From positions 1 to 52,424 of the forward strand of contig JAUYKS010000003.1 of NCBI GenBank assembly GCA_030699935.1: a stretch of DNA of 52,424 bases, given 5' to 3'. Shown here one piece after another: positions 1,569 to 8,184 of this stretch. The notes beneath the pieces are model-generated. The model made no database searches and was not told the DNA's origin. It was given only the letters and a program-made list of their open reading frames with translations. This stretch comes from a bacterium. GTDB taxonomy: Bacteria; Patescibacteriota; SICC01. The position numbers and the translations under genes were made by a program. The first letter of the stretch is position 1. Every line of letters begins with the position of its first letter.

Positions 1569-3674
<2,106 letters not shown>

Positions 3675-3683
3675 ACGAAAGTT

Positions 3684-3713
3684 AGTTTACGGGAAAAAAA
3701 CTGCTCTAGCTAG
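3684..3713 (-). promoter_or_regulatory. Promoter-like element CTAGCT-N9-TTTTTCCCGTAAACT upstream of fusA
   Basis: Same bipartite element and spacing occurs at 7276-7305; TAAACT ends 9 nt before the fusA ATG. Confidence 0.55.
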
Positions 3714-3725
3714 AAGCTGAGAGTA

Positions 3726-5069
3726 TTAATAAATTTTCTCATTAGCTATCAGTTTTCGTAAATCAACTTTTGAAATGTGTCTGACTCGTGAGAAAAGCTT
3801 TAGTAAACGGTAATGGTAGGCATTAAGCGTTGTTTGATTCGCTAGCTCTTCTAGGTAAGTGATGAGCTCAACTTTTTGACTCGACGTTGATTTTTTGTAG
3901 AGCCTATACAAGTCACTTTCACTCAAAGAAAGTATGACTTCTTCGTCAAGAACCTTTGCAAAAAACCCAGCCCTTAAATCTAACCTAATCTTTTCAATTG
4001 AGCAGTGCAGAAGACGACGAATTACGGATATTTTTCTAAAAGGGACATTGGGGTAATTTAAGAAATCTATCACTGCTCGTTCTACAAACTCTTTCTTCTC
4101 GGCATTTTTTTCATTCACCATGTTAAAAAGGTCAAAAGACCAGTAGAGGTGAAACTGGGATTTATTGGAAAACTCTTCTACCTTACCGCCATTAATCCTT
4201 AGTCCAAGTCTATGTAAAAGTCGGCCAGCTTCCTCAACTATCTGATGAGCAACCTCCCTACTTGGAGCAAAAATAATGTGATCATCAGAGAATCGCAGCC
4301 TTCGCGATCCTAATTTCTGGCAGTATGCAGCAAGTGCATTGTCGTATCCATGCAGATAGAAATTTGCCAAAATTCTAGAAGCATCTCCAACTTCATCTTG
4401 AGATATGCCTACATCAGTTTGCTTTTTCTGCGGGTTCCAGCGATGAAGGAAATCGCACATCCAATCAACAATGTCTGCATTTGAACAAGCGATTCTTAAC
4501 ATATCTTCAAGGATATTAACGTTAATAGAATCGTAGAAGTCAGCTATATCAAAATTGATAGCATACCCAAAGTTATCCTCTGAATAATTATGTGCGAGGT
4601 TTTGAAATTTACCCCAATGGTCGAACCAACCCAACGGGTTATAAGTAAGATCAGGTCCGTAATAGAGATTCGCACCTGATTTGATTGTTTCTATTTCTTT
4701 TGCTTCAGCATACTTAAGACCTATGTCAGTCCTATAACCTCCAAAGGTACCTTGTACTCTTCGATCTTCATCCGCGATATCTGGTTCTAATTTGCGGATT
4801 AAGTAGTAGTGGACACAAAGCTCAGGATAATCAAAAACAGGAACTATACGATTCGCTAAATTGTACTTTCTCCATAGAAGGTTTTCTCTAGGGGAGTACT
4901 GAGCATACTTATCGCTCTTAATGAGCTCATAAAGACTCATTAAGAACTCCTCCTTTTGTTCCGGAGTAGTTAGCGGATATTTATATGGCACCAAACTTCT
5001 ATTAACTGAGCTCCAAAAATTTTTAGAGAAGTGAAGTCTGAATAATGAGTAAGACTCGATTTTAGGCAT
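3726..5069 (-). CDS. Stand-alone reverse transcriptase-family protein
   Basis: RT motifs: FDIADFYDSI (A), GISQDEVGDASRILANFYL (B), RFSDDHIIF (C, xxDD). AT-rich: two lines counted by hand are 24/60 GC. Confidence 0.88.
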   Translation of the reverse strand: MPKIESYSLFRLHFSKNFWSSVNRSLVPYKYPLTTPEQKEEFLMSLYELIKSDKYAQYSPRENLLWRKYNLANRIVPVFDYPELCVHYYLIRKLEPDIADEDRRVQGTFGGYRTDIGLKYAEAKEIETIKSGANLYYGPDLTYNPLGWFDHWGKFQNLAHNYSEDNFGYAINFDIADFYDSINVNILEDMLRIACSNADIVDWMCDFLHRWNPQKKQTDVGISQDEVGDASRILANFYLHGYDNALAAYCQKLGSRRLRFSDDHIIFAPSREVAHQIVEEAGRLLHRLGLRINGGKVEEFSNKSQFHLYWSFDLFNMVNEKNAEKKEFVERAVIDFLNYPNVPFRKISVIRRLLHCSIEKIRLDLRAGFFAKVLDEEVILSLSESDLYRLYKKSTSSQKVELITYLEELANQTTLNAYHYRLLKLFSRVRHISKVDLRKLIANEKIY

Positions 5070-5113
5070 ATAGGGATGAAAATAATTGTCACACCCCTTT
5101 TACCTCAAGGATT

Positions 5114-5512
5114 CTACACAGCCCCCGCGTCCCGAATCACCTGCTTGTTATCAAGCGCGATCTCGAGCCCATCGATCTCGGACGGGTCGAACCACTGCAA
5201 CTCGTTCTCTTCGCCCCCGCCCGGCTCGCTGGTCTTCACGACGAACGTCAGCGGGATGCACGGCTGGTCCGGGTGCCGGTCCGGATCGTCGTAGTACTTG
5301 CCGGTGAACTCGATGGAATCGGTCGAGCCGATGCCGGCCTTGTCGCGCAGGCGCCGCTCGACGGCCTCGGTCAGCCGCTCGCCGGGGTTCACGTAGCCGG
5401 CAATCAGCTCCCACTTGCCCTGGTCCGGGTCCTTGGTGCGCTTCCGCAGCAGGACCTTGCCGTCCGGGTTGACGACGATGGAGGATACGGCGAGGAGCTT
5501 CTGGTCGGCCAT
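5114..5512 (-). CDS. NUDIX-fold protein with degenerate Nudix box
   Basis: GYVNPGERLTEAVERRLRDKAGI matches the Gx5Ex7 framework but has RRLRDK in place of REUxEE. Start MADQKLL preferred (TATTAT 7 nt upstream). Confidence 0.8.
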   Translation of the reverse strand: MADQKLLAVSSIVVNPDGKVLLRKRTKDPDQGKWELIAGYVNPGERLTEAVERRLRDKAGIGSTDSIEFTGKYYDDPDRHPDQPCIPLTFVVKTSEPGGGEENELQWFDPSEIDGLEIALDNKQVIRDAGAV

Positions 5513-5552
5513 GGCTTTCATAATACCAGTACATTGGCTATGATAATCCGCC

Positions 5553-6404
5553 ATGCCAAGCGAACCGATACCGGCTGCACTCGAACAACTTCGTCCTTAT
5601 CTGGAAAAGGAAACGCTTCCGTGGGCGGAAGTCAGTGCCGGGGACTCGATCATCGTCACCAGTTGTGACGCCGAAGGAAACGCCCTGGGCGATTCGGCCT
5701 TTACGTTGCTGGATATGGAAAAGCAGGAGGACGGTACTTACCGAACCGTTCTTCGATTGGAAAGTTCCGAGGTGACGTTCGGCGACGACTCATCGCCGCG
5801 GAAGCCGGTAGAACTCCCGGCGGGAACGATCATGTCGGGCGGCGTCGGTTGCGAACACTTCCCGGAGACGACGACCTACATGATGTACGTGGGCGGAATC
5901 TCCACCGGGCGAGACTTCTCGTTCGACAACGTCCTGACGCCTGACGGCGAAGTCAGGCAGGACGCGGCGCTGCGAGACGTCACGCAAGTCGCACATCGCG
6001 ACGGCGATTTAGAGGAATCGGCAGAAGAGACCGTCACCCGCTACCAGCGGACGGTCGAGGAGGAAAAGAAAAAGGATGACGAGGATACGGCACAACAGAT
6101 GCAAGCGATCGAAGGACAGCTCGACAAGGAACTGCAAGAGCATCTCGACGAAAAGACGGGCGCAAGGATTAAGGATCTCTGGTCCACCTTTTCCGACGAA
6201 GGAAAGTGGCGGCTGGCCATTTTGTGGTCGCATGCCCTGGATCAGGAAGTCACGGAGCGATACCTTCCTGCACTGGAAGAAGCCATGGAGGAAGAATTTA
6301 CCTGGGCACCGAACGCCGTCCGGGGTGCGATGATGCTGCCAGCTAGCCAGCGAGGCTACGCGATGATGGTCGAGAAACTCGGACTGCAGCGAAAAGAATC
6401 ATAG
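5553..6404 (+). CDS. Hypothetical protein (283 aa)
   Basis: Open frame with TATGATAAT just upstream of ATG; central charged coiled-coil-like segment; no recognised family. Confidence 0.65.
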   Translation: MPSEPIPAALEQLRPYLEKETLPWAEVSAGDSIIVTSCDAEGNALGDSAFTLLDMEKQEDGTYRTVLRLESSEVTFGDDSSPRKPVELPAGTIMSGGVGCEHFPETTTYMMYVGGISTGRDFSFDNVLTPDGEVRQDAALRDVTQVAHRDGDLEESAEETVTRYQRTVEEEKKKDDEDTAQQMQAIEGQLDKELQEHLDEKTGARIKDLWSTFSDEGKWRLAILWSHALDQEVTERYLPALEEAMEEEFTWAPNAVRGAMMLPASQRGYAMMVEKLGLQRKES

Positions 6405-7713: not shown

Positions 7714-8184
7714 TTAATATCGCGCGTAGTGCGCGAACGCCCGGTTGGCTTCCGCCATCTTGAGCACGTCTTCCTTCTTCTTGTAGGCGGACCCCTCGTT
7801 CTTGGCGGCAGCGATCAGCTCCTCCGCCAAACGCTTGCTCATGGCGCTGCCCTGCTTGGCACGGGAGGTGTCGACCAGCCAGCGGATCGCCAGCTGCGTC
7901 TTGCGGCGCGGCCGGACCTCGGTCGGGATCTGGTAGGTGCTGCCGCCGACCCGGCGGGCGCGGACCTCGACCGACGGCGAGATGTTCTTAATCGCCTCTT
8001 CGAAGACCTCCAGCGGCTCGCGCTTGGTCTGCTCCTTGATGATGTCGAACGCGTCGTAGATGATCTTCTCGGCCGTAGTCCGTTTGCCATCCAGCATCAG
8101 CTTCCCGATGAACCGCGAGACCAGCTTGCTGCTGTAGCGCGGGTCGGGCTGGGGATCGCGGACGGCCGCACTGCTTTTACGCAT
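7714..8184 (-). CDS. rpsG: 30S ribosomal protein S7
   Basis: 156 aa, S7 signature ...[26 protein letters not shown]... Confidence 0.98.

Follow-up and report, generated by a model that had tools for sequence, protein, structure and literature searches.

We found that the 447-aa reverse transcriptase (RT) encoded in the window (the whole 52,424-nt stretch of DNA analysed here) is, by its sequence, a member of UG13b, an already named group of UG/Abi RTs. The group itself is known from PADLOC, while the strongly diverged Patescibacteria member described here, for which we can predict a function, is a new addition to a recognised group of defence RTs. On balance, we consider it probable that this is a horizontally acquired, stand-alone UG13b enzyme acting as a single-gene anti-phage RT, which would synthesise DNA without a cis-encoded RNA template and would probably be protein-primed.

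The open reading frame runs from an ATG start to a TAA stop with no internal stops and retains all three catalytic aspartates (D174, D262 and D263), bearing out the RT motifs A, B and C recognised in the original prediction (Table 1). Its GC content is 38.0% (47, 32 and 35% at the three codon positions, that is, a GC3 of 35%), compared with 64% GC and a GC3 of 87–90% for fusA, the NUDIX gene, rpoC and rpsG, and the ORF is the most AT-rich stretch of its length across the window. It lies 44 bp from the NUDIX gene and 51 bp from fusA, whose ATG is at 3674, so the description of an AT-rich RT squeezed between these two genes, with no room for a retron msr/msd, proved correct. The hairpin over the RT stop codon, together with the T tract that follows it, suggested that the RT gene may have its own terminator; this hairpin was absent from the output of a simple consensus scan. 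A consensus scan for promoters upstream of the RT gave fewer sites than shuffled sequences, and no target-site duplication or flanking direct repeats were found near the gene. The adjoining genes are ordinary, with no restriction, SLATT or ion-channel gene among them.

Table 1 Features of the RT locus in the window.
Feature	Position	Strand	Remarks
UG13b reverse transcriptase, 447 aa	3726..5069	-	PADLOC RT_UG13b E=1.2e-96, residues 10-435
RT motif A, DIADFYDSI, residues 174-182	4524..4550	-	D174 invariant in 34 aligned sequences (alignment A2)
RT motif B, GISQDEVGDASRILANFYL, residues 221-239	4353..4409	-	Family consensus GIPQDE..DCSRILANFYL; here Pro to Ser
RT motif C, RFSDD, residues 259-263	4281..4295	-	D262 and D263 invariant in 34 aligned sequences
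C-terminal all-helical domain, residues 303-443	3741..4163	-	AlphaFold2 model
NUDIX-RT gap, 44 bp, too small for a flanking ncRNA	5070..5113	-	
NUDIX hydrolase gene, upstream neighbour	5114..5554	-	Host-like composition
fusA, downstream neighbour	1569..3674	-	93-94% identity to same-genus copy (G001)
rpsG, other edge of the variable rpsG-fusA gap	7714..8184	-	
Hairpin resembling an intrinsic terminator	3694..3755	-	Covers the RT stop codon, then T tract
Segment with no match ahead of fusA in the same-genus genome (G001)	3691..5113	.	Similarity restarts at 3690

Profile searches placed the protein clearly. Pfam RVT_1 matched at 36.8 bits, above its curated cut-off, and the PADLOC check proposed earlier returned RT_UG13b as the best match at 322 bits, far ahead of UG21, the next family (81 bits), UG13a (59 bits) and UG17 (44 bits). 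The protein resembles other RT_UG13b members in its whole-length profile match and invariant catalytic motifs, but it is the most deviant member we observed, with 19–37% identity to all others. The earlier view that this is a UG/DRT-type enzyme rather than an intron, retron or DGR RT was supported by the RT_UG13b match (1.2e-96) and by a score of 54 bits with the NCBIfam group II maturase model, whose cut-off is 300, and no intron RNA was found in the window. Retron models scored 31–41 bits, below cut-off, with no Rfam retron match and gaps too small for msr/msd; no repeat pair resembling TR/VR was found in 3400–5700; and an Rfam scan of the window detected tRNA only. Matches in BFVD were to general RT/RdRp folds, giving no indication of a viral origin. 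Elsewhere in the same genome, contig C14 (L001:1047-2952) carries a group II intron with a 553-aa RT and both catalytic RNA domains (RF02005 and RF00029); the two RTs have the RVT_1 core in common, whereas the intron RNA domains are found at C14 only.

The host genome comprises 762 kb in 26 contigs and is 93% complete. When three genomes of the class were compared, the UG13b gene was not found in the other two. In the alignment with the same-genus genome G001, similarity ends 16 nt before the fusA ATG, and the slot upstream of fusA in G001 (L046:10730-12086) holds a foreign DpdB/DndB-like DGQHR gene followed by an 80-aa ORF; this gene is also AT-richer (48% GC) and matches DpdB (2.4e-19) and Pfam DndB (4.6e-17). 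The length of the rpsG–fusA gap is ~4.0 kb (window), 9.3 kb (G001), 6.6 kb (G003) or ~150 bp (G006). These sizes and the foreign gene in G001 indicated, within the four genomes, that the gap is a variable slot open to foreign genes, and it is in this slot between rpsG and fusA that the RT gene would have landed. Foreign composition and absence from the same-genus genome thus supported the horizontal acquisition put forward in the original prediction, and inspection of the same locus in related genomes, also suggested there, revealed a variable slot that lacks the RT and in G001 contains another foreign gene. The G003 gap (L051:3637-10157) contains ORFs that, judged by eye, resemble RadC and a MntA/HepT toxin-antitoxin pair.

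No close relatives emerged when viral and genome contigs were scanned with single sequences, and phage records contained none either. A scan using an alignment of five members recovered 54 loci in GTDB genomes and five in viral contigs, some merely distant, and all 34 sequences in alignment A2 match RT_UG13b. The approximately 40 relatives come from Cyanobacteria, Bacteroidota, Patescibacteria, Alphaproteobacteria and one archaeon. In the tree, Alphaproteobacteria form a separate branch, and Cyanobacteria, Bacteroidota, Patescibacteria, a Sedimentisphaerales bin and the archaeon, a member of Thermoplasmata, are intermixed; this mixing of taxa, with many of the records being metagenome bins, fits horizontal spread of the group. 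Within the phylum, strong UG13b matches were obtained in two of 380 genomes, the window genome and G354.

Among the pattern-selected loci, some of which are cut by contig ends and for which the counts have no random-gene baseline, the branch around the window RT has restriction-modification genes no more than three genes away from the RT in L060, L061, L065, L067, L069, L073, L074, L075 and L078, as assigned by Pfam except in L065, where the protein was judged directly (L060 has a ResIII helicase only). The RT sits between hsdS and hsdR of type I restriction systems in L067 and L078, and Vsr adjoins it in L081. SLATT_5 is adjacent in nine loci (Alphaproteobacteria and L071), seven of them confirmed by Pfam and most convergent with the RT, and in two further loci its place is taken by a convergent Ion_trans_2 channel gene (L095:7428-8315 and L089:7344-8231). 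No SLATT gene is adjacent to the window RT, and a SLATT_5 search of the whole window genome, run without a positive control, gave no match. SLATT_5 is already known to accompany UG17/DRT10 and, in some cases, DRT9 (PMC8934634, PMC12632851, PMC12483538), and some Abi RTs also occur within restriction operons (PMC8934634). The SLATT_5 pairing is common to DRT10 (UG17 with SLATT and ncRNA) and the alphaproteobacterial UG13b branch, but UG13b shows no flanking ncRNA signal, its SLATT gene is mostly convergent where that of DRT10 lies upstream, and the window copy has none. Support for the predicted defence role comes only from membership of UG13b and from the neighbourhoods of the relatives.

To look for an RNA partner, we compared UG13b pairs with 72–87% DNA identity but different neighbours, and found that similarity is mostly lost within ~30 nt of the ORF ends (for example, from -1 to +7 in L047/L074 and from -1 to +18 in L058/L059). 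The exceptions lie upstream: L056/L057 share 109–136 nt, and L060/L065 share 72 nt, which is the tail of a methylase gene situated ahead of the RT in L065. As the control we used DRT2 loci with their adjacent ncRNA, taken from plasmid records because a Drt2 search of 399 genomes gave too few loci. Upstream of the RT, similarity between the control pairs extends over 339 nt at 80% DNA identity and over 199–206 nt at ~50% protein identity, indicating that the comparison would have revealed a flanking ncRNA of the DRT2 kind. Most UG13b pairs, unlike these controls, show no such extension beyond the ORF, and a flanking ncRNA is unlikely for UG13b. Within the ORFs, no consistent constraint at synonymous sites was detected (one of four groups at p = 0.046). 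From these alignments, UG13b seems to spread as one gene on its own, with no RNA to accompany it.

Structure prediction, another of the proposed checks, produced a confident AlphaFold2 model (pLDDT 87.8, pTM 0.87) in which the RT core is joined to a C-terminal part made up entirely of helices, with DRT4 and DRT6 as the best whole-length matches in the PDB. By Foldseek, query-normalised TM-scores (TMq) were 0.60 for DRT6 and 0.55–0.58 for DRT4/UG15, followed by AbiA (0.45–0.55), AbiK (0.44–0.49) and AbiP2 (~0.45), and were 0.34–0.38 for DRT9 and 0.39 for DRT2; group II intron RTs reached 0.45–0.48 through the core, with similar E-values. The relative L059 gave the same ranking (DRT4 0.59–0.61, DRT6 0.60, DRT9 0.39–0.43, DRT2 0.40), although the two models are not independent because they were built on nearly the same alignment. 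The modelled fold of the window RT is nearer to DRT4, DRT6 and Abi enzymes than to DRT2 or DRT9 over its whole length, at TM-scores (0.55–0.60) that are moderate. DRT4 (UG15) and DRT6 (UG12) likewise combine an RT core with an all-helical C-terminal domain in a single gene, but they belong to different UG groups and show only 13–15% identity to the window RT in the structural alignment. AbiK, AbiA and AbiP2 have a similar whole-length architecture, but the C-terminal part of the window RT is shorter, Pfam finds no extra domain in it, and the sequence match to AbiA is weak (48 bits in PADLOC; 38 bits in NCBIfam against a cut-off of 250). Class 1 UG RTs are described as template-independent enzymes that carry an alpha-helical repeat domain (PMC13174585), and this fusion of an RT to an all-helical repeat domain is present in our model according to AlphaFold2 and Foldseek. 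DRT4 is described as a single-gene, template-independent system (PMC13213688), and DRT1 (PMC13275509), like DRT4 and the class 1 UG RTs, provides a precedent for template-free DNA synthesis in abortive defence.

In the mechanism that we favour, the UG13b RT would form an oligomer, as do the DRT4, DRT6 and Abi enzymes, and this oligomer would polymerise DNA without a cis-encoded RNA template, with the chain probably starting from a side chain of the RT itself; no priming residue could be singled out. On phage infection, the DNA made by the enzyme would cause the cell to stop growing or to die. Some relatives would work together with a membrane protein or a restriction system, while the window RT would act alone. 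We found no experiments on any UG13 member in the open-access papers searched.

An alternative to this mechanism is an RT that depends on a structured RNA as its template, supplied from another place in the genome or from within the RT's own mRNA, in the way that DRT2, DRT9 and DRT10 require an adjacent ncRNA. DRT9 and DRT10 are RNA-templated and have recurrent SLATT_5 partners (PMC12483538, PMC12632851), so the recurrence of SLATT_5 in the alphaproteobacterial UG13b branch speaks for such a template, as does the upstream sequence common to L056 and L057. We nevertheless regard it as unlikely, given that most UG13b pairs lack the conserved flank that the DRT2 controls show clearly, that the ORFs show no consistent internal synonymous constraint, that the window flanks are just 44 and 51 bp, and that the predicted structure is closer to DRT4, DRT6 and Abi enzymes than to DRT2 and DRT9. 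The location between the NUDIX gene and fusA could instead point to an RT domesticated for a housekeeping role tied to the translation genes of the str operon region, as the original prediction had allowed. This reading found no support and is highly improbable: the same-genus slot holds a different foreign gene and lacks the RT, the sole other genome of the class compared lacks it as well, the composition of the gene is unadapted to the host, and no recurrent tie to translation genes was seen among the relatives.

A further alternative to a working single-gene defence RT is that the acquired UG13b gene survives in the window only as a remnant, decaying or already inactive. It deviates at 10 of the 47 near-invariant columns (≥85% conserved in A2) and keeps 37, whereas other members deviate at four at most and keep at least 43. 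The deviations are P57Q, D83E, W112Y, N177D, L204M, a deleted Tyr, P223S, Y257R, A261S and S282G, among which the motif B Pro to Ser change, the loss of a near-invariant Tyr and the replacement of a conserved Trp by Tyr speak for decay, and the GC content of the gene is still foreign. Against this, stops or frameshifts would be expected of a remnant, yet all 447 codons are open, the catalytic triad is intact, the whole-length model is confident, and the gene has its own terminator-like hairpin; we therefore judge decay to be quite unlikely. The deviations may have arisen in a diverged sub-branch whose closer members are missing from the sample, or they may mark an altered enzyme or the onset of decay; because 10 of 47 near-invariant positions are broken, including the motif B Pro and the lost Tyr, the activity of the window copy is uncertain.

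Taken as a single gene with no flanking RNA, a predicted DRT4/DRT6/Abi-like fold and recurrent partners, UG13b gains a testable identity, and these partners (type I restriction operons, SLATT_5 and ion channels) hint at where a DNA product may act. The locus also shows that an ultra-small genome of the Patescibacteria can carry an RT of defence type, and it indicates the rpsG–fusA gap as a landing place for foreign genes in the host lineage. A more far-reaching proposal, which we offer tentatively and consider possible but doubtful, is that UG13b represents a new DRT type, as yet without a number, in which one gene encodes an enzyme that synthesises DNA without a template and would serve as a plug-in for alternative effectors (alone, with restriction systems, or with SLATT/ion-channel proteins), and that the altered polymerase site of the window copy (P223S in motif B, the lost Tyr and Y257R) would change its product.

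Several other RT genes were observed during the searches. In the Patescibacteria genome G247 (L010:186-3159), a 596-aa UG13a RT lies downstream of a gene whose C-terminal region resembles a nuclease, and the related Patescibacteria genomes G090 and G333 (L014:1105-3222 and L015) encode a 705-aa RT whose group is uncertain and whose UG13b match is weak. On an IMG/VR contig (L110:1524-7323), a UG13b RT is located two genes past a phage minor tail (tape-measure-like) protein and is possibly phage-carried.
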